Virus record (IMG/VR): IMGVR_UViG_3300017743_000032
Location: 1 to 41,282 of that record
Strand: one strand, 5' to 3'
Length of the DNA: 41,282 nucleotides
Source: a virus
This document shows positions 163 to 17,478 of this stretch, one piece after another. Below the pieces are notes generated by a model. That model was not told where the DNA came from and searched no databases. It saw nothing but the letters and a program-made list of their open reading frames with translations. Each line of letters begins with the position of its first letter. Within the stretch, counting starts at the first letter, position 1. A program made the position numbers and the translations under genes.

Positions 163-546
163 ATGACTAAATACACTTACTCAGACGAACTAGTATCAGA
201 TTTACATAAAGATGCTTGGGGTTTTAGACCTCGTGAAAAATTTTGGTTTTATTGGGAAATTTCAGACCAAGATGCAAAGCAAGCTATTTGGGATAACCTT
301 ATTGATGATATGGTTAAAAACCAAGCTGAAGAAATTCAAACTAAAAAAGATAATGCTTCAATGCTTGCTGAAAGAATTAAAAGGGTTTGTAAGCTTGGTG
401 CTCAAAATTACAGAACTGCAATTAAATGGATACTTGAAGCAGATGAGTTAGAGCCTGACTTTCAATATGGTGGCGACCATTTAGCTTGGCATTACCATAT
501 TGAATACAGACACAGTAAATTATTTAAACTAGCGGGAGTAGCATAA
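163..546 (+). CDS. Conserved phage hypothetical protein, 127 aa
   Basis: First gene of the rightward block, preceded by promoter P1 and by AGGAGA six bases before the ATG. The N-terminus (YSDELVSDLHKDAWGFRP) is a motif I recognise from many phage conserved hypothetical proteins of unknown function. The rest is helical, charged and rich in Trp and Tyr, with no catalytic motif, signal peptide or membrane segment visible. Its stop overlaps the start of the DUF932 gene (TAATG), so the two are translationally coupled. The function is unknown. Its position directly after a strong promoter, outside the virion genes, suggests an early role. Confidence 0.8.
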   Translation: MTKYTYSDELVSDLHKDAWGFRPREKFWFYWEISDQDAKQAIWDNLIDDMVKNQAEEIQTKKDNASMLAERIKRVCKLGAQNYRTAIKWILEADELEPDFQYGGDHLAWHYHIEYRHSKLFKLAGVA

Positions 547-1460
547 TGTTAGATACAAAAATGGAAGAAGCGTTACAAGACGTATCATTTAAAATTGATG
601 TGAGGGATATTCAAGGTATCCCTTCACATATGGGCAGAAAAGTAGTTCGCCTTAATGCCTATGGTCAGCAAGAAGGTGATCCTCTTGGTATCGTAGGTTC
701 TAGATATAAACCTATACACCATATGGATGCTTTTGGTGGAGCTATAGAATCAATGAAAAATGGTGGTCTAGACTTTACTGATCATGAAATCAAAGTTGAC
801 ACTTATGAAGATGGTGCAATGGCTAAGATGGAATTATTGCTTCCTGCACATAACACTAAAGTTGGCGACCACGATTTATCACTAAAGTTTGTAGCTAGAA
901 ATAGTTACAACGCTAGATGGAAGTTTCAGTCTTTCTTTGGTTGGATGAACCATGTATGTTTTAATACGTTAGTAAGTGGTCAAAAGATTGCTTATACTGC
1001 TAACAGACATACTACTCATTTCAACGTAGACGCCTCTAACAAAAAGATACAGAATGCAGTAAGTGCGATTACTAATGAAGCTCAAACTTTCAACAAGTGG
1101 TGGGATACTAAAGTAGAGGATGAACAAGTTATCGATCTGTTTAAATCTACTATTGCAAAAAGCCAAGCTAACGATATTAAAATTGCTAGTGGTCAGTCAG
1201 ACACTAATAAAAAGCAACTATATCATTTAATGGGCTTATATGAGGCTGAGGTGGCTCAAATTCATGGAAGGGGTGATTATGGCAGAAATGGTGCTAAAGG
1301 CTCTCTATGGTGTGCTTATCAGTCAGCAACTGCTTGGTCTACCCACTTAGGTGACGTAAAAGCTAATAGCACAAATAAATATATAGTCGAGCAACGTAGA
1401 CAAAACGATGTGAGGTCTATGATTAATAGTAACAAGTGGAAACAACTTGAAAATGCATAA
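546..1460 (+). CDS. DUF932 family protein (phage/plasmid-like TIGR03299 type)
   Basis: A 304-residue protein with the general layout of DUF932: an N-terminal part in which the Y(K)PI(H) context follows a GIVGSRYKPI segment (near residues 55-65), a central block containing SLKFVARNSYNARWKF, and a conserved FNTLVSG segment near residue 140. DUF932 proteins are common in phages, plasmids and integrative elements; their biochemical role is not established, though they are often found with replication or recombination genes. It starts in a TAATG overlap with the preceding gene and is followed by a GAAA-loop hairpin that looks like a terminator. Expression of the next gene is therefore likely reduced relative to this one. 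Confidence 0.85.
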   Translation: MLDTKMEEALQDVSFKIDVRDIQGIPSHMGRKVVRLNAYGQQEGDPLGIVGSRYKPIHHMDAFGGAIESMKNGGLDFTDHEIKVDTYEDGAMAKMELLLPAHNTKVGDHDLSLKFVARNSYNARWKFQSFFGWMNHVCFNTLVSGQKIAYTANRHTTHFNVDASNKKIQNAVSAITNEAQTFNKWWDTKVEDEQVIDLFKSTIAKSQANDIKIASGQSDTNKKQLYHLMGLYEAEVAQIHGRGDYGRNGAKGSLWCAYQSATAWSTHLGDVKANSTNKYIVEQRRQNDVRSMINSNKWKQLENA

Positions 1461-1464
1461 TAAT

Positions 1465-1491
1465 AGGGGAGCGAAAGCTCCCTTTACTTTT
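1465..1491 (+). terminator. Intrinsic terminator with GAAA tetraloop, just after the DUF932 gene
   Basis: GGGAGC (1467-1472), loop GAAA (1473-1476), GCTCCC (1477-1482), then TTTACTTTT (1483-1491). A G.T pair can extend the stem by one. It starts five bases after the DUF932 stop and ends before the GAGGAG ribosome site of the next gene at 1504. This is the form of a rho-independent terminator or attenuator; leakiness would set a low level of the ATPase-GNAT. Confidence 0.8.
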
Positions 1492-1503
1492 GAGGAGAAG
1501 GTT

Positions 1504-2649
1504 ATGGAAGATTTATATGGATACAAAAAAACTATATTAAGAAGTGAGGTGGAGCTTTCAGATATAGATAAAGAAATATTTAAAAACTTTGATTATAAGT
1601 TTGATGGGGTCACTGAGTTTGAGTTACCTCATTTCGAGCCTTTCAAGGAGGACTTTTCTATTGGCGTTATTTATGGGTCAAGTGGTAGTGGTAAATCCTC
1701 TATGCTTGCTCAGTATGGTAAAGAAGAGGAATTGACTTGGGATAACAACAGAACCATAGCATCTCATTTTGATAGCGTAGAAGACGCCATAGAGCGATTT
1801 GGTGCAGTTGGTCTTAATACTGTTCCAACTTGGGCTAAACCTCGACATGTATTATCAAATGGTGAAGGCTTTAGATGCGACCTAGCTAGACGTTTAGGTA
1901 ACGATATTGTTATTGATGAGTTTACTTCAGTTGTAAACAGAGATGTAGCTAAGTCATGTTCATTATCTTTATATAAGTATGTAAAGCGTAAAGGGCTTAA
2001 GAATATTGTACTAGCCACTTGTCACGATGATATCTTAGAATGGCTGCAGCCAGATTGGGTATTTAACACTGATGTGAAGCGATTCGCATCAAGGGGGTTA
2101 GTTCGGCAACCCATTAAAGTTAAAATTGTCAAGGGGAACAGAAACCACTGGGAACTATTTAAAAAGCATCACTATCTAAGCGAAGACCTTCCAGCTTCTG
2201 CACACTGCTATCTTGCAGTTTGGAACGATAGAATTATTGGGTTTTCTTCAGTCATGTCTTTGCCTGGTTGGACACCACCTCTTTACGAAGGCGACAAGCG
2301 TCTTAAGTGGCGTGAGGCTAGAACAGTAGTCCTTCCAGACTTTCAAGGGCTAGGGATAGGTGTAAGGCTTTCTGACGCTATTGCAGATATGATGATAGAG
2401 AAGAATGTACGTTATTACTCTAAGACCTCACATATTAGAATGGGTGAATACAGACAAAAGTCACCTCTATGGAGGGCTAGTGCTAGTAATTTAAAAGACA
2501 GAAGTAGTGACATACATGACCATAAGAAGCGTCTTATACCTTTAGAAAGAGATAGAATTTGTTATTCTCACGAATATATAGGCGAAAACAATAAGTCATA
2601 TGACCCCAAGTATAATCGCCCTGACGATCCACAACAAAGCTTGTTCTAA
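1504..2649 (+). CDS. ABC-type ATPase fused to GNAT acyltransferase
   Basis: 381 residues from the ATG at 1504, chosen because GAGGAGAAGG lies directly upstream and because the in-frame TTG/ATG codons at 1447/1453 precede the terminator hairpin. Residues 1-200 are a compact ABC ATPase: Walker A GSSGSGKS (58-65), signature LSNGE (117-121), Walker B DIVIDE (134-139) and an H-loop His at about 174. From about residue 207 a GNAT-type acyltransferase follows, with HHYLSEDLPAS and the acyl-CoA motif QGLGIG. Fusions or pairs of this kind occur in other phages. GNAT domains of this shape are reminiscent of the phage Mu Mom DNA-modification enzyme, but the substrate here is inference only. There is no transmembrane partner, so it is not a transporter. 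The next gene is a paralogue of its GNAT half, and the two overlap by TAATG. Confidence 0.8.
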   Translation: MEDLYGYKKTILRSEVELSDIDKEIFKNFDYKFDGVTEFELPHFEPFKEDFSIGVIYGSSGSGKSSMLAQYGKEEELTWDNNRTIASHFDSVEDAIERFGAVGLNTVPTWAKPRHVLSNGEGFRCDLARRLGNDIVIDEFTSVVNRDVAKSCSLSLYKYVKRKGLKNIVLATCHDDILEWLQPDWVFNTDVKRFASRGLVRQPIKVKIVKGNRNHWELFKKHHYLSEDLPASAHCYLAVWNDRIIGFSSVMSLPGWTPPLYEGDKRLKWREARTVVLPDFQGLGIGVRLSDAIADMMIEKNVRYYSKTSHIRMGEYRQKSPLWRASASNLKDRSSDIHDHKKRLIPLERDRICYSHEYIGENNKSYDPKYNRPDDPQQSLF

Positions 2650-3242
2650 TGATATTTGAATATCATAAAGACAATTCTAAATATCTATCTACAAAACTTA
2701 CGAAGCCTAAAATAAATGTAGATATAATTCATGGTGATAGAAAGCTATGGGATATATTTAAGAAACACCATTATCTTAGTGAAGATTTACCTGCATCCAC
2801 AAGATGTTACTTTGCTGTATGGGAGGGCAATATTATTGGATTTAGTGCTACAATTAGTTTGCCAGGCAAAATACCACCTTTATATGAAGGCGACATAAGA
2901 AAAAAATGGAGGGAATGCAGAACTGTAATAATACCAGACTTTCAAGGATTGGGTATTGGAACTAGATTTTCTGACGCTATAGCTGACATACACATAGAGC
3001 AAGGTTATAGATATTTTAGCAAGACATCTCACATGAGGATGGGGCTATATAGAGAAAAGTCATCTATATGGAAAGCAACAGCGACCAATCTAGCAGACAG
3101 ATCGAAAAGCACCAAAGGAAAAAGTTGGGCACATCTTACGCTTGAAAAAGAACGAATATGTTATTCACATGAATATATAGGTAAAGATAGAAAATCCTAT
3201 AACCCTAAATATAACGCCACTACTCACCCTTTATTGATCTGA
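2649..3242 (+). CDS. GNAT acyltransferase, paralogue of the preceding fusion's C-terminus
   Basis: 197 residues, nearly all GNAT domain. It shares long identical stretches with the C-terminal half of the upstream ATPase fusion: KKHHYLSEDLPAS, PPLYEGD, PDFQGLGIG, SDAIAD, ICYSHEYIG. By eye more than half of about 170 aligned positions are identical, which indicates tandem duplication. The acyl-CoA pyrophosphate loop (QGLGIG) and the His-His-Tyr motif are intact in both copies, so both may be active. It starts inside the stop of the ATPase gene (TAATG). Its end overlaps the convergent minus-strand gene by 23 bases. The substrate is unknown; nucleic acid, protein and small molecules are all possible. 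Confidence 0.8.
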   Translation: MIFEYHKDNSKYLSTKLTKPKINVDIIHGDRKLWDIFKKHHYLSEDLPASTRCYFAVWEGNIIGFSATISLPGKIPPLYEGDIRKKWRECRTVIIPDFQGLGIGTRFSDAIADIHIEQGYRYFSKTSHMRMGLYREKSSIWKATATNLADRSKSTKGKSWAHLTLEKERICYSHEYIGKDRKSYNPKYNATTHPLLI

Positions 3243-3987
3243 GGCTATCCATAACATCGCTAATACTAGGCTCTTTCCCATTAGGGTTTAGTACACATCT
3301 ATAGCTCTTAGGGCATCCAACTCGAATATCTGTAAATTCCATTTCGTATGTTTTTTGTGCTCCTCTATAAATACAAGCCATTTTGTCTTTATAAACCTTC
3401 TGCTTCATAAGTCTACATAAGGTCATTGTAGGAGGTGTTATTATACCTTGATTAAGTTGTTGTTGTTTAGTTAGTCCTTTAAATTGAGTGTTTTTAGACT
3501 GATAGGTGTTACCTTTAGCAAATACTTTAACGCCTACTACTAAACCACCTAACAAAACACCTATACATGTAAAAATAATTCCTACCCATTTTACAGTCTC
3601 TAATAGCTCATCTTGCCTTTTCTTGGCTTGAAGTCTAGCTTTCCTTTGAGCTTCTTTAGCTTCATTTATTCTATTGGCTCTTTCTGCAAGTATCTGATCC
3701 CATGCCTGCGGCCCAAATCTTAGGTTAATTATCATTTTTAGTTCATGACGTTTTTCTTCTAAAAGCTTTCTATCTATAAAATCTGTTGCACTTGATTCTA
3801 TTCCAAACTGCTCTTTAATGCTAAAGCCCTTACCTTGACCTTTATTCATCTGCTCTTCGCCTAGAAAAAAGCCATCGATTTGTTTAGCTATGCCTTGAAT
3901 ATCTTGAACTGTGGATATATTTTCTTTTATGAAGTCAACACTTTTTTTGACTAGTGCTATACCTGTAAGTATTTCAGCAACGACCAT
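3220..3987 (-). CDS. Single-membrane-span phage protein, probable virion protein
   Basis: 255 residues and the last gene of the long leftward operon. The N-terminus (AEILTGIALVKKSVDFIKENI) is a recurring motif in marine phage conserved proteins, some reported as virion-associated. A charged coiled-coil segment (about 105-140, rich in Ala, Arg, Lys and Glu) leads into a hydrophobic helix (about 145-167, WVGIIFTCIGVLLGGLVVGV). The C-terminal domain has four Cys residues, possibly paired (CRLMK, CIYRG, GCPKSYRC). This layout suits an internal or ejected protein that can reach the membrane, but that is inference. It overlaps the stop of the convergent GNAT gene. Confidence 0.7.
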   Translation of the reverse strand: MVVAEILTGIALVKKSVDFIKENISTVQDIQGIAKQIDGFFLGEEQMNKGQGKGFSIKEQFGIESSATDFIDRKLLEEKRHELKMIINLRFGPQAWDQILAERANRINEAKEAQRKARLQAKKRQDELLETVKWVGIIFTCIGVLLGGLVVGVKVFAKGNTYQSKNTQFKGLTKQQQLNQGIITPPTMTLCRLMKQKVYKDKMACIYRGAQKTYEMEFTDIRVGCPKSYRCVLNPNGKEPSISDVMDSLRSIKGE

Positions 3988-7629: not shown

Positions 7630-9108
7630 TTATCCACCTGCTCTATTTCGTGACATAAAGTAAGCACTTCCTAATGCACCCAATCCACCAATTGTCTGTC
7701 CATATATACTTGGTGACTGAATGAACTGTTGACCTTGTGTAAGGCTTATATTTCTAGTGTCGTAAGGTGTTCCTTGTAATACGCCTAATGCGTAGTTTAT
7801 TTGTTCATAAGGATATTCCCTTTGCTCAACATAATCTGCATAAGCCATATCTAAAGCTCTTTGGTCTAGCTCTCTTTGAGCTTGTCCAGAGGTAAATAAA
7901 CCTGCTGCTGCCTGATCACTTAGGGCTTGTGTAAGTGGTGCAAAACCTTGCAAGGCTTCTGTGGCTCTTAATCTACTAGCTTCTTCAGTCTCAAATGCTG
8001 ATCTTGCTGCATCTTGTGCCCCAAATCTAGCTTGCCTTTCTGCATCATATCTAGAACGCATGACGTCTTCTGCACCAAAACGTGCACTTCTATCCCTTTC
8101 AGCCTGTGCTCTGTCTTGCTCAAAGCGACCTCTCATAACATCTTCAGCACCAAATCTAGCTGACCTATCTCTTTCTGCTTGTGCTCTATCTTGTTCGTAT
8201 TGGCTTCGCATTAGGTTTTCTGCAGTAAATCTACCTTCTCTATCTTGCATAAATTGACTACGAAGTAAGTTTTCTGCTCCAAACCTTGCTTGTCTGTCAC
8301 GTTCAGCTTGTGCCCTATCTTGGTCATACCTTCCTGCCGCAAACTGTAGCCCTTGTGCTGCTGCCTGTGCTCTTAAATCAGCAGAACCTCTTGCTCCTTC
8401 ACTTTGTGTTAGGGCTTCTTGTATTCCTAATCTTGACCCACCAAAAGCACCAGACCTAGCTGCTGAAGCTCTATTTCTGGCATTAGCTCTCGCAGTTTGC
8501 CTTTCTAACTCTGCCACTGAGGCGTCTTGTGCACCTTGATATATGTCAAGGAAAGGTTGTGCAGTTTCCATAGTAAATGGCGACATACTATCGCCTACTA
8601 ATTGCTCTCTAGTAGCACCAGTGTAATTACCTAATAAATCTTCACGACTTGCACCTTCATATGCAGGAAGAGAGCTACCTATCAAATCTGCTCTTGATGC
8701 ACCTTGATATGTTGGCAATGCACCACCAAGTAATTCTTCTCTTGATGCCCCACGATATGGACTACCTATTAACTCACTTGTAGACATTCCTTGAAAGCCT
8801 TTACCTAAACCACTAGCCATATCTGAGGCTCTATCTATGTAGTCTTGATATCCAGTCGCATTGTCTCTTAAAAGTCTTTGAGCAGCTAATTCGTCTGGGG
8901 ATAGTTTGGATGTTGCTCCAGTAACTGGGTCTGTATATGATGTTATTCTTGCATCTTCGTATGCTGGGTAAGGTGATCTTGCCAGTGATGACGCTTCTTC
9001 AAATAGTCTTTTACCACCCTCAGAAACCCAACCAGGTAATTGTGTATCTGTTACAACTTCGCTATAATCTGGAAGTGGGTCAACAGTTGTAGTGCAAAAT
9101 CCACCCAT
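7630..9108 (-). CDS. Repeat-rich probable internal virion protein, 492 aa
   Basis: Two kinds of repeat are visible. Residues about 115-175 hold five versions of a YxGASREdLLG unit. Residues about 260-375 hold tandem units of about 20 residues, such as QDRAQAERDRSARFGAEDVM. The latter are Arg/Ala/Glu-rich, predict a long continuous helix, and resemble the alanine- and arginine-rich rods of ejected virion proteins. The N-terminus (MGGFCTTTVDPLPDYSEV) looks like a lipoprotein-style or capping peptide, but no hydrophobic segment precedes its Cys. The C-terminus has an aromatic patch and a Gly-rich end. It is a structural candidate, with no named family. Confidence 0.75.
   Translation of the reverse strand: MGGFCTTTVDPLPDYSEVVTDTQLPGWVSEGGKRLFEEASSLARSPYPAYEDARITSYTDPVTGATSKLSPDELAAQRLLRDNATGYQDYIDRASDMASGLGKGFQGMSTSELIGSPYRGASREELLGGALPTYQGASRADLIGSSLPAYEGASREDLLGNYTGATREQLVGDSMSPFTMETAQPFLDIYQGAQDASVAELERQTARANARNRASAARSGAFGGSRLGIQEALTQSEGARGSADLRAQAAAQGLQFAAGRYDQDRAQAERDRQARFGAENLLRSQFMQDREGRFTAENLMRSQYEQDRAQAERDRSARFGAEDVMRGRFEQDRAQAERDRSARFGAEDVMRSRYDAERQARFGAQDAARSAFETEEASRLRATEALQGFAPLTQALSDQAAAGLFTSGQAQRELDQRALDMAYADYVEQREYPYEQINYALGVLQGTPYDTRNISLTQGQQFIQSPSIYGQTIGGLGALGSAYFMSRNRAGG
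7990..8330 (-). repeat. In-gene tandem repeats encoding RAQAERDR..RFGAED units
   Basis: Approximate span of tandem coding repeats of about 60 bases in the gene at 7630-9108. At least four units share (Q)DRAQAERDR(S/Q)ARFGAE(D/N)(V/L); flanking units are degenerate. Copy number could change by recombination. The boundaries are estimated by eye. Confidence 0.7.
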
Positions 9109-9548
9109 TATTCTTTCTCCACATATGTAGAGCCAGCTTTGACTAGCCCTAATCTTTCATAGAATTTATCCTTTCGATCCAAGTCTCCAGAATAAATATG
9201 CCCTAATCTCACTTTAAGTTTAGCATCTTTTGCCACTTTGATAAACGCCTTTATTAGTGATACTGCAGAATCAGTTTTTCTTTGTGAAGGCGTTACATAA
9301 AACCATACATCAGACAAATAAGGCTGATTAGACCACCAGTCAGTTGTGGTCATGCCACCTATAGAGCCAGTAATCATATTGTCTTTAATGCTTACCAAAA
9401 CTAAACCCTTGTGAACCACTTCGTTGATTTTATTAATCAACTTGTATTCGTCTATGGGTGCTAAATTTATTTCAGTATTGCTATGCATCTCCTTGAGCAT
9501 AACATACAAAGCTGATATTTCATTAGCACCAGCTCTAACAACTTGCAT
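9108..9548 (-). CDS. GNAT-family acetyltransferase
   Basis: 146 residues with the GNAT order: an N-terminal helix pair (ANEISALYVMLKEMH), a beta meander (LVLVSIKDNMITGSIGGM), then beta4-alpha3 (LSDVWFYVTPSQRKTDSAVSLIKAFIKVAKD) and a C-terminal FYERLGLVKAGSTYVEK, which is typical of the fold. The acyl-CoA loop is the degenerate form QRKTDS rather than Q/RxxGxG/A. Similar small GNATs occur among structural genes of marine phages; targets are unknown. It is not closely similar to the GNATs at 1504-3242. It overlaps both neighbours by one base. Confidence 0.8.
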   Translation of the reverse strand: MQVVRAGANEISALYVMLKEMHSNTEINLAPIDEYKLINKINEVVHKGLVLVSIKDNMITGSIGGMTTTDWWSNQPYLSDVWFYVTPSQRKTDSAVSLIKAFIKVAKDAKLKVRLGHIYSGDLDRKDKFYERLGLVKAGSTYVEKE

Positions 9549-15286: not shown

Positions 15287-15856
15287 TTATTTAAAAGGTT
15301 GTCCACAGAACCATGCTACTAAGGAGTATCTTGTTCCTTTTGTTACAGGTCTTACTCTGTGTACCATGTAAGATGGAAAAACAATTACAGTTCCCATTTT
15401 TTCTTTTATTAAGTTCTTGTCTTCAAAAAACTCAAACTCGCCACCTTCATAATCTTCATTAAGCACAATTGTCATTGATAATTTTCTAGTTGTTCTATGA
15501 AGAAATTTGTTGATTGGGTTATTAAATCTTGTAAAGCCATCTCCATCAAAATGAAAATCGTAATGCCCATCTTTTTCGTATTCTGTTATTTGCATTGGCT
15601 CACAAGCACTAATTTCAAAGTTCCAGTTTGAGTTTTTGTTTGCAGTGTGTAAAAACTCCCAACATATATTAAAAAGCCATTCATCATTTGACCATGCCAC
15701 ATTGGTTTTTCTTTTTTCTTTGTCAAGTTTGATTTCTGTAGTCACACCTACTTTTGCTTCTTCCCATTTACCTTTTCCTAACTCAATAATTTTTTGACAT
15801 ATTTCTTTATTTAAAGCTTTATCAAAGACCCAATATGCATGTTTGGCATCACCCAT
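15287..15856 (-). CDS. 2OG-Fe(II) oxygenase, prolyl-4-hydroxylase-like (1 of 3)
   Basis: 189 residues. The facial triad is visible as His102 and Asp104 (YEKDGHYDFHFD) and His166 (PSYMVHRV), with the 2-oxoglutarate-binding Arg176 (GTRYSL). The N-terminal half is the usual helix-rich lead-in, and GGEFEFF precedes the second His as in PKHD/P4H-type enzymes. Such enzymes couple oxidation of 2-oxoglutarate to hydroxylation of a peptide, sugar or small molecule. The target is unknown. It is the last of three adjacent oxygenase genes placed between tail-fibre and lysis genes. Confidence 0.9.
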   Translation of the reverse strand: MGDAKHAYWVFDKALNKEICQKIIELGKGKWEEAKVGVTTEIKLDKEKRKTNVAWSNDEWLFNICWEFLHTANKNSNWNFEISACEPMQITEYEKDGHYDFHFDGDGFTRFNNPINKFLHRTTRKLSMTIVLNEDYEGGEFEFFEDKNLIKEKMGTVIVFPSYMVHRVRPVTKGTRYSLVAWFCGQPFK

Positions 15857-16444
15857 TTAATTATTTTCTGTTATTAGTTTTAAATTAAATGATATAGCTA
15901 TTCTACTTTTGCTCATATTTAAGTCTACTGAGTGTGGTAAATCTGATTTCCATATAAATATATTACCTTTTTGTGCAGGAAAACGCCATTCGTTTGAATT
16001 GTATTTATTATACTCTTTAAAATGAAATCTTGAATTAGGGTCGTTAATAAATTCATGTCTATGAAATATTATATCCGCACTATTGGGTTCTGTATGCACA
16101 TAAAAATTACCACTTAAATCACAGTATCCATTATGTCCATGTACTTTATGTTGACCATATTTATACATCTCTGACACCCATATAGTTTCTATGGATACTC
16201 TATTTACATTTTGTATTTGTAATTTTTCACAATAAGCAAAAGCATTTTTAAAAATAAAATCATATAATACTTGAAACTTTTCGTTATATTCATTCCATAT
16301 ATTAGTATTAAAAAATGATGTCTTGCCAAATTTATATCTTCCATCTTTAGGAAGGCGAGATAAAATGTCTTTACATGGCTGCAATATACTATCTGCTATA
16401 GCCTCGTCTTTGTTTCTTTGAATGTAGGTTGTGAATAAATCCAT
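15857..16444 (-). CDS. 2OG-Fe(II) oxygenase, 2OG-FeII_Oxy_5-like (2 of 3)
   Basis: 195 residues from the ATG at 16444. This start gives the family's typical opening (MDLFTTYI, compare lFPTPI) and lies four bases after the upstream stop; a start farther upstream would overlap that gene by 65 bases. The family pattern is YGQHKVHGHNGYCDLSGNFYV, then IIFHRHEF, then the second metal site LPHSVD and the Arg of SRIAISFN. I assign it to the PF13759-type family, which is common in cyanophages and other marine phages. The substrate is unknown. It is clearly a different subfamily from its two oxygenase neighbours. Confidence 0.8.
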   Translation of the reverse strand: MDLFTTYIQRNKDEAIADSILQPCKDILSRLPKDGRYKFGKTSFFNTNIWNEYNEKFQVLYDFIFKNAFAYCEKLQIQNVNRVSIETIWVSEMYKYGQHKVHGHNGYCDLSGNFYVHTEPNSADIIFHRHEFINDPNSRFHFKEYNKYNSNEWRFPAQKGNIFIWKSDLPHSVDLNMSKSRIAISFNLKLITENN

Positions 16445-16448
16445 CTTA

Positions 16449-17018
16449 TTACCAAAGATAGCTGAACCAACCAGTAATGATAGTTTTTTCTTGAGTTTTT
16501 GATATTTGACCACAATGTGTGTGTGTCCAATCAGCGGGCCAGATAATTGTTTTACCCTTTTGTGCTTTTACAATTCTATTTTGATAGACAAATTTAGTTC
16601 CACCATCTTCTACATCATTTAAATATGTCATAAACACTAAACATCTTTTTAACGTCAAATTAAATGAGCCATCTCTTTCACAATGCTCCGCTTTAAAACC
16701 TTCATCCTTTTTGTAATGTTGTATATTGTAAGGCTCTGCCACGTTGAATCTATATAATTTATTAACTTGTGGGTACGTTTCAACATACAGATTTAAACAA
16801 TTTTGTAATTCGTTACGATAGTCTCCAAAGGGTCTGTCATTGTTATTAGGCTCAATACTTAAATCAGTAGATATTTTAATATCATCTTTTACTGTTTTCT
16901 TGTTTGTTGATTGTACAATTCCTTTGTGGTGTAAATGTATATTATTTTTATAGTAATCTAATATTTCGTCACATATATATTCAGGTATTGTCCAACTTGA
17001 TATAAAATCGCTACTCAT
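16449..17018 (-). CDS. 2OG-Fe(II) oxygenase, P4H-type (3 of 3)
   Basis: 189 residues from the ATG at 17018 (an in-frame TTG lies just before it). The core reads IQHYKKDEGFKAEHCE, so the first metal pair is His-x-Glu, as usual for this phage subfamily, then YLNDVEDGGTKF, WPADWTHTHCG with the second His, and a Lys in QEKTIITGW where other P4H enzymes use Lys or Arg for 2-oxoglutarate. All these elements are intact, so activity is expected. It overlaps the upstream gene by eight bases and is followed, four bases on, by oxygenase 2. Confidence 0.88.
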   Translation of the reverse strand: MSSDFISSWTIPEYICDEILDYYKNNIHLHHKGIVQSTNKKTVKDDIKISTDLSIEPNNNDRPFGDYRNELQNCLNLYVETYPQVNKLYRFNVAEPYNIQHYKKDEGFKAEHCERDGSFNLTLKRCLVFMTYLNDVEDGGTKFVYQNRIVKAQKGKTIIWPADWTHTHCGQISKTQEKTIITGWFSYLW

Positions 17019-17478
17019 CAAATGTTAATAGTTCCCACCCTTGTGTGTTATCTGTTTGATAGGCATCTTCATTCCATGTGTAAGGCGTTTCATTGCTATC
17101 ATCACTTGGTCTAGGAATAGGTGCTTCCCACACACAAGAAGTTTCATTTAATGACCAAGATGGATAAGTTTGAGGCTCATAAAAGGCATTTCTTGTTGCG
17201 TCATATATCCCACCTAATATTGGGTAATTTTTTCTAAATGCTTTACTTTGGTCAGAAGATGGTACAGTAGCTCTACCTTGCTCATCCCTTTCCCAATAAA
17301 TACCCCCAATTGTATTATATGACGCTTGTTTCCAATTTGGGTGTCCAGTTAAATTAGTTAAAAAGTCAATTCCTAGTTGCTCTTGCTCTACACCATTCTC
17401 GTCAAGAATAACTTCATCAGCCACTCTAACTATGTCTTCTACTATATTATCTGTTCCAATTTTTGCAAAGTGTGCCAT
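17011..17478 (-). CDS. Conserved marine-phage tail-associated protein (MAHFAKI type)
   Basis: 155 residues. The start MAHFAKIGTDNIVEDIVRV, then GGIYWERDEQ, the KNYPILGGIYDATRNAFYEP pattern and the late PYPSWSLN/PYTWNED repeats are those of a conserved hypothetical protein found in many marine T4-like and other phages, often beside fibre or tail genes. Its molecular role is unknown. It overlaps the stop of the glycine-rich fibre gene upstream by one base and the start of oxygenase 3 by eight. Confidence 0.75.
   Translation of the reverse strand: MAHFAKIGTDNIVEDIVRVADEVILDENGVEQEQLGIDFLTNLTGHPNWKQASYNTIGGIYWERDEQGRATVPSSDQSKAFRKNYPILGGIYDATRNAFYEPQTYPSWSLNETSCVWEAPIPRPSDDSNETPYTWNEDAYQTDNTQGWELLTFDE

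Follow-up and report, generated by a model that had tools for sequence, protein, structure and literature searches.

The DNA analyzed here, referred to as the window, is the whole 41,282-nucleotide stretch of a virus, a marine phage, in IMG/VR (record IMGVR_UViG_3300017743_000032, positions 1 to 41,282). Two adjacent genes on its plus strand encode an ABC-type ATPase fused to a GNAT acyltransferase (1504..2649) and a second, free GNAT (2649..3242). The fold, the intact motifs, the duplication and the selection on it, and the gene neighborhoods are results of computation, and the target, the acyl donor and the purpose are inferred; the pair is probably an ATP-driven system that acylates phage DNA bases, analogous to that of the DNA modification protein Mom but differently built. 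DNA is the target that we consider probable, with RNA and protein sharing most of the remainder; it is favored because genes for ParB_N-like proteins, Mom and the terminase are neighbors of these genes, and because in this phage genes of DNA recombination precede the pair on its own strand. Both the family and the proposal that it acylates DNA are already known and the fusion is not new, section 3.4.7 of PMC7824862 (Iyer et al.) predicting that a "GNAT coupled with an ABC ATPase" acylates DNA bases.

It is clear from its motifs and fold that the first gene encodes an intact ABC-type ATPase and GNAT fusion. The protein has 381 amino acids when started at the ATG at 1504, which is preceded by a good ribosome-binding sequence as judged by eye; the alternative longer start is a TTG at 1447. 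The nucleotide-binding domain covers residues 7-200 (1522..2103, plus strand as for all features of the pair) according to structural matches obtained with VIA-align 2, among them PmtCD (6xji_C; Z-score 13.5, root-mean-square deviation (rmsd) 3.1, 165 aligned residues) and MJ0796 (1l2t_A; Z-score 13.2, rmsd 3.3, 169 aligned). The earlier note on this DNA had read a complete Walker A, LSxGE signature, Walker B and H-loop in the ATPase, and all of them were found: the Walker A GSSGSGKS at residues 58-65 (1675..1698), with G58, S60, G61, G63 and K64; the signature LSNGE at residues 117-121 (1852..1866), with S118 and G120; the Walker B region with D138 and E139 (1903..1920); and the H-loop histidine H174 (2023..2025). 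These ten key residues are without variation across an alignment of 93 sequences. The Pfam model ABC_tran matches the fusion below its cut-off, and the ABC assignment is based on motifs and fold.

The fused GNAT domain occupies residues 204-366 (2113..2601), as placed by Pfam, by the AlphaFold model and by its structural match to 2bsw (Z-score 13.6, rmsd 3.0, 134 aligned, VIA-align 2). Acetyltransf_1 (PF00583) is matched above cut-off by the fusion (E-value 2.6e-6) and by the free GNAT (2.8e-5). The AlphaFold model of the fusion contains both folds and is confident (predicted local distance difference test, pLDDT, 92.4; predicted template modeling score, pTM, 0.88), which bears out the fusion proposed earlier; that of the free GNAT has a pLDDT of 86.8 and a pTM of 0.82, and is matched by 1y9k_A with a Z-score of 13.4 (rmsd 3.2, 134 aligned). 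The free GNAT, of 197 amino acids, begins within a TAATG junction in which the stop codon of the fusion and its own start codon have one base in common. It is indeed a tandem paralogue of the fused domain, given that 112 of 190 residues (59%) are identical, and both copies keep the acyl-CoA (acyl-coenzyme A) loop QGLGIG and the motif HHYLS. In the fused copy, HHYL lies at H222-L225 (2167..2178) and QGLGIG at residues 281-286 (2344..2361), with H223, Y224, Q281 and G282 invariant among the 93 sequences. The corresponding positions of the free copy are H40-L43 (2766..2777) and residues 99-104 (2943..2960), where H41, Y42, Q99 and G100, together with W34, F37, R91, P96 and W141, are invariant across 110 GNATs that include the free ones.

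The earlier note had pointed to the synteny of the pair in related phages, and in many loci of the window clade the position behind the fusion was found to be occupied by one of two genes. A free GNAT stands there in five fetched loci (L001 to L004 and L007) and a 215-amino-acid Mom protein in eight, where the gene starts 33 nucleotides downstream of the fusion and scores above the Pfam cut-off; the copy in L005 matches Pfam Mom (PF25680) with an E-value of 5.4e-38 and the PHROG "Mom-like DNA modification protein" with 6.9e-59. The same Mom gene lies 33 nucleotides downstream in L026, which stands outside the count of eight because its contig is truncated and retains just the GNAT half, and L008 was left out of the scoring as its contig stops 0.3 kilobases (kb) after the fusion. 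A Pfam Mom search of ten records of the window clade gave a match in two, both from the Mom group. Mom is rare, with any match at an E-value of 1e-3 in 284 of 50,697 phage records, and in three further viral loci a Mom gene above the Pfam cut-off precedes the fusion by 1.1, 1.7 and 4.9 kb.

Other arrangements of Mom were also seen. In one viral contig, 8 kb are enough to contain Mom, an aspartate decarboxylase, the ABC-GNAT and a gene resembling dCMP deaminase (L073:482-8275). The T4-like Aeromonas phage PX29 has a Mom gene (L199:1432-2316) and an ABC-GNAT (L042:3953-5131) far apart, as seen from two records. In Microbacterium phage Antuna (L201:1969-3121), a Mom-like gene directly follows a ParB-like gene, as ABC-GNAT genes do.

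In the tree, the free GNATs form a single clade (support 100/99), whose sister group, moderately supported (83/91), consists of the nine fusions tested from the window clade. Because of this placement, the duplication probably took place at or just before the base of the window clade, and the free copy was probably lost or replaced in other members, unless it moved between phages. Over all ten pairs, the ratio of nonsynonymous to synonymous substitution rates (dN/dS) is 0.06-0.14 in the free GNAT, compared with 0.02-0.09 in its fused counterpart and 0.03-0.09 in the ATPase; these ratios are approximate since dS is saturated in several cases (up to 3.0). The free GNAT could be a duplicate in decay or without catalytic activity that contributes nothing by itself, an alternative that concerns this gene only and would fit its somewhat faster evolution and the loci L014, L015, L016 and L017, in which the position behind the fusion holds neither a free GNAT nor Mom. 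We regard this as quite improbable, since purifying selection is seen in 10 of 10 pairs, the residues invariant in 110 sequences are retained and the reading frame is open in five of five relatives. The free GNAT looks like a working gene under looser constraint.

Relatives of the fusion are numerous. The scan of viral contigs gave at least 584 relatives among 600 candidate stretches, that of species genomes 392 out of 429, and 55 phage records contain relatives; the neighborhoods were analyzed in the best 80 relatives of each scan. A GNAT was matched in 196 loci, whose domain layout is fused in 183, fused with a free GNAT in seven and split in five, the last being a truncated contig with the GNAT only; these loci were found by queries or patterns that included the ATPase, so that lone GNATs are under-sampled. 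ParB_N-like genes were counted in the 195 loci with an ATPase (104 viral, 80 from genomes, nine from phage records and two copies of the window) using a custom profile made in this analysis. Such a gene, in the same orientation and no more than 300 base pairs upstream, is present in 61 of the 80 cellular-contig loci and in four of the nine phage-record loci, and was present in six of ten further phage records. It overlaps the ATPase by the same 22 nucleotides in 22 of 67 loci, overlaps being approximate because gene starts were set at the first start codon after a stop. A profile built from the five partners that pass the Pfam ParB_N cut-off recovers, at an E-value of 1e-3, 57 of the 61 partners in genome loci and each of the remaining six; it also matches the ParB-like gene of Antuna. 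The best PHROGs of the partners are mostly "ParB-like partition protein" or unnamed, and phrog_498 (DNA methyltransferase) is matched by a Gordonia partner (E-value 1.1e-24) and a Leptospira partner (4.1e-13).

Clustering of neighboring genes, and with it the terminase count, took in 64 of the 80 genome loci, since the simple gene caller missed the target gene in the others, compared with all 80 for the ParB_N counts. A terminase large subunit was found within four genes downstream in 36 of the 53 genome loci with at least three downstream genes called; of the two terminase clusters, the larger has a representative that falls slightly short of the Pfam cut-off, and the other has one above it. 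Because of this close terminase, many of the genome loci look like prophages.

These neighborhoods also bear on a target other than DNA. TmcA and NAT10 have an ATPase-GNAT architecture of their own, and by analogy the ATPase could remodel a transfer RNA (tRNA) or messenger RNA for the GNAT to acetylate one of its bases. The fusion of ATPase and GNAT is itself in favor of this explanation, and NAT10 is among the Protein Data Bank matches of the GNAT profile, although that match is not significant (E-value 0.029) and comprises 24 residues of the acyl-CoA loop only. Given that the ParB_N-like, Mom and terminase neighborhoods indicate DNA, and with no tRNA gene in the window, which bears weakly on the question, RNA is an unlikely target.

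The surroundings of the pair in the window phage agree with a role in DNA metabolism. Upstream on the same strand are the gene of a small protein matching phrog_21968 (163..546) and that of a DUF932 protein (546..1460; PF06067, E-value 4.3e-14), already recognized as such in the earlier note, which precedes the fusion in 18 neighborhood loci of this phage clade, copies of the window counted. Copies identical to all four window proteins of 163-3242 occur in L001, so that by sequence this phage is the same or nearly the same as that of the window, and its 52.6-kb record reaches beyond the window at both ends. Upstream on the same strand this record encodes exonuclease-like, Erf-like annealing, single-stranded DNA-binding (SSB)-like and HNH proteins; primase-helicase and replication initiation genes are on the opposite strand, and the terminase large subunit lies past the far end of the window. 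With neighbors of recombination and replication type, the pair is therefore part of a DNA metabolism block, and the proposal that it stands with DUF932 outside the virion genes is upheld by the longer record. No transporter partner was recognized, in that no transporter family was matched by the three neighbors checked (163-546, 546-1460 and the convergent gene 3220-3987, which has one hydrophobic stretch by eye), no transmembrane predictor having been run. A transporter role of the ATPase was set aside, with no membrane-transporter gene beside it in those annotated neighborhoods that were viewed, one of whose records carried no annotation.

Further along the window, a third GNAT of another family (phrog_1249; 9108-9548, minus strand) lies within the virion gene block, and three adjoining tail-region genes (15287-17021, minus strand) resemble 2-oxoglutarate/iron oxygenases by eye.

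Genes of accessory chemistry are found next to the ABC-GNAT in other phages. The 19 phage loci compared were chosen for variety, not at random, from two listings of 55 and 51 records. A formyltransferase gene directly follows the ABC-GNAT in five of them (L037:1805-2452, L041:5900-6517, L207:3352-3825, L210:3171-3890 and L214:1826-2473), which belong to the related Gordonia phages Axumite (where a ParB-like gene is also present) and NHagos, to Komp_PAO1_1, to Porphyromonas phage 006a and to a fecal phage; some of these genes have no annotation, and the others are labeled tRNA-methyltransferase, phosphoribosylglycinamide formyltransferase, formyl transferase or hypothetical. An aspartate decarboxylase followed by a CoA-transferase-III-like gene takes this place in Gordonia phage Jace (L212:3391-4502) and twice within a single Gemmataceae genome (L167:1508-2576 and L177:7100-8074). 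The decarboxylase matches PF02261 in the three loci with E-values of 2e-33, 5.9e-32 and 4.1e-20, the frame called in L177 being without the start of the domain. The CoA-transferase-III-like proteins are above the PF02515 cut-off in two of the three loci; they are short (227 and 235 amino acids, and two frames in L177) and match only part of that model. In the viral locus L073 the decarboxylase is 1.2 kb upstream of the fusion, with Mom farther upstream. Such a decarboxylase is rare, being present in 15 of 50,697 phage records, two of them of Jace.

The putative decarboxylase and CoA-transferase would plausibly provide beta-alanyl-CoA as acyl donor, and the window clade may use the acyl-CoA of the host. 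Alternatively, the pair could be an enzyme acting on a small molecule or nucleotide, either making a precursor or disarming a defense signal, and the neighboring decarboxylase would then be reminiscent of PanZ, the GNAT responsible for PanD maturation in enterobacteria. Spermidine and aminoglycoside acetyltransferases are indeed in the top Foldseek rows. This explanation is very improbable, given that it leaves the ATPase and the ParB_N-like gene unexplained and that the aspartate decarboxylase adjoins the ABC-GNAT in three loci only.

Several results weigh against a Mom-analogous DNA acylation system. ParB_N-like neighbors are rare in the viral loci (2 of 104), and none was found in ten records of the window clade, which may be fragments; of 12 ParB_N-like partners compared with Pfam, five pass the ParB_N cut-off, four are below it and three have no match. 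Formyltransferase and aspartate decarboxylase genes were likewise found in none of ten window-clade records, which may be incomplete. The eight Mom loci are nearly identical in protein and count as one phage group or one event. In L029 and L074, the Mom-like gene that comes right after the fusion scores under the Pfam cut-off; the XF1762-like proteins encoded there and beside L165, which matched the Mom profile made here without reaching that cut-off, were rejected as Mom.

The remaining results of this kind concern the GNATs themselves. Pfam Mom, a model that does detect Mu Mom and the sister-phage gene, matches neither the fusion nor the free GNAT up to an E-value of 1. The comparison of the GNAT with Mom by hhalign is not significant (6% probability, E-value 0.0062 for a single comparison, 31 columns), and a rerun with other match columns gave a score of 19.7, which was reached by 4 of 100 column shuffles (median 12.5, maximum 21.3; top five 19.4, 19.7, 20.1, 20.3 and 21.3). 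Of the solved structures, those of amine and protein acetyltransferases come closest. The free GNAT matches Mom (8bv8_A) with a Z-score of 11.7 (rmsd 4.4, 158 aligned) and ordinary GNATs with up to 13.4 (VIA-align 2). By the tests made here the GNATs are not Mom: there is no PF25680 match, the profile similarity is not significant, and the structural score is tied with those of ordinary GNATs, which sets Mom apart in neither direction. The alignment puts HHYLS over KHYS of Mom, and of the Mom invariants, which include H58, Y59 and D149, the HY pair is aligned; this pair, common to Mom and these GNATs, is a lead from a local alignment that is not significant.

The suggestion of a Mom-like modification thus divides in two, since the gene context (the ParB_N-like partner, Mom in the slot of the free GNAT and the published prediction) speaks for DNA modification and family membership does not, and the functional analogy with Mom rests on context, not on descent. 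A structural placement of the GNATs with ordinary acetyltransferases would not decide against DNA modification, because Mom itself falls among these enzymes. The nearness of the folds to N-terminal and small-molecule acetyltransferases would suit an enzyme that acetylates proteins for host takeover or anti-defense. Phage GNATs of such kind are described in PMC7824862, where phage Rac is said to acetylate the alpha subunit of RNA polymerase. A protein target would leave unexplained the ABC ATPase, which in 195 of the 196 GNAT loci is part of the same protein or encoded next door (lone GNATs being under-sampled), as well as the ParB_N-like, formyltransferase and Mom neighbors, and we hold it to be no likelier than an RNA target.

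If the pair acylates DNA, the reaction could proceed as follows. Binding of ATP would close the ABC dimer on or around DNA, and the closed dimer would bring one GNAT per protomer to the helix and expose a base. The GNAT, with acyl-CoA held in the QGLGIG loop, would then acylate the exocyclic amine of the base with the help of the invariant HY pair, and hydrolysis of ATP would reset the clamp. In loci that encode one, a ParB_N-like protein may serve to load the complex or to position it. The mark on the DNA would shield the phage from host restriction. The free GNAT would have been kept after duplication because it provides specificity for a second donor or target; having no ATPase, it might partner the fused GNAT or use another acyl-CoA.

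A more specific version of this mechanism can be put forward tentatively, and is on the whole doubtful: that ABC-GNATs are ATP-driven DNA aminoacyl transferases with a modular supply of donors, and that the window phage makes two marks, the slot of its second GNAT being exchangeable with Mom. In some lineages the aspartate decarboxylase would make beta-alanine, the CoA-transferase-like protein would convert it to beta-alanyl-CoA, and the GNAT would put the beta-alanyl group on the base; in other lineages the formyltransferase might cap or replace this group. The second GNAT would give the second mark, and sister phages would differ in DNA chemistry at one locus.

Among known systems, the closest is that predicted in PMC7824862, which in the section cited above names Tenacibaculum phage pT24 as example (accession given QAX98348.1) and refers for the prediction to earlier work by Iyer, Aravind and colleagues (ref. 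136). The pT24 genes BPT24_038 and BPT24_037 match the fusion with 37% identity over residues 67-366 (E-value 3e-50) as well as the ATPase and GNAT profiles built here, and we infer from this homology that they are the pair meant in that section. The two domains are the same; the differences are that in pT24 they are annotated as two genes and that the window has a second, free GNAT. Homologous ATPase and GNAT genes, adjacent and unfused, are also found in Lactococcus phage P335 (Orf24-25), Streptococcus phage Javan141 and Oenococcus phage Vinitor-27. As in other relatives these pairs stand behind a ParB_N gene, here above the Pfam cut-off, and the annotation of their ATPase reads ABC transporter or iron-siderophore transporter. 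Nonlabens phage P12024S has the fused form. Likewise, public phage records annotate the ABC-GNAT or its ATPase half as an iron siderophore transporter or hemin importer subunit in L035, L208 and L213.

PHROG 11143, which has no function assigned, is matched by the fusion over nearly its full length (residues 12-364 to profile positions 5-354 of 357, E-value 1.1e-105) and by the free GNAT in the C-terminal half of the profile only (1.1e-37). It was rejected as a test for the presence of the family given that 14 of 14 control genomes match it, presumably through ABC ATPases in general. COG2401, an archaeal cellular family described as "ABC-type ATPase fused to a predicted acetyltransferase domain", can be likened to the fusion by name only. 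Mu Mom (8bv8) shares with these proteins the GNAT fold and, in the alignment that is not significant, the place of the HY pair (H58-Y59 in Mom, H41-Y42 in the free GNAT); it differs in having no fused ATPase and, by eye, RNSES in place of the canonical QGLGIG.

In the literature searched, no bench test or measured nucleoside data were found for the family, nor did any paper turn up that deals with the free GNAT, its exchange for Mom or the decarboxylase, some of which the 2013 primary paper may describe. Searches for restriction data on the Leptospira phages LE3/LE4 and on pT24 yielded nothing of use. The passages seen of PMC12839542 and PMC10853773 do not describe the ABC-GNAT family.

The family is widespread, and some phage records annotate its members as ABC transporters. 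If its substrate is DNA, it would add a class of base modification in which an ABC ATPase takes part, and for which the neighboring genes, the aspartate decarboxylase with the CoA-transferase-like gene and the formyltransferase, point to a chemistry that can be tested. The exchange of a GNAT paralogue and Mom in a single slot would then show phages swapping DNA chemistries, presumably against restriction.

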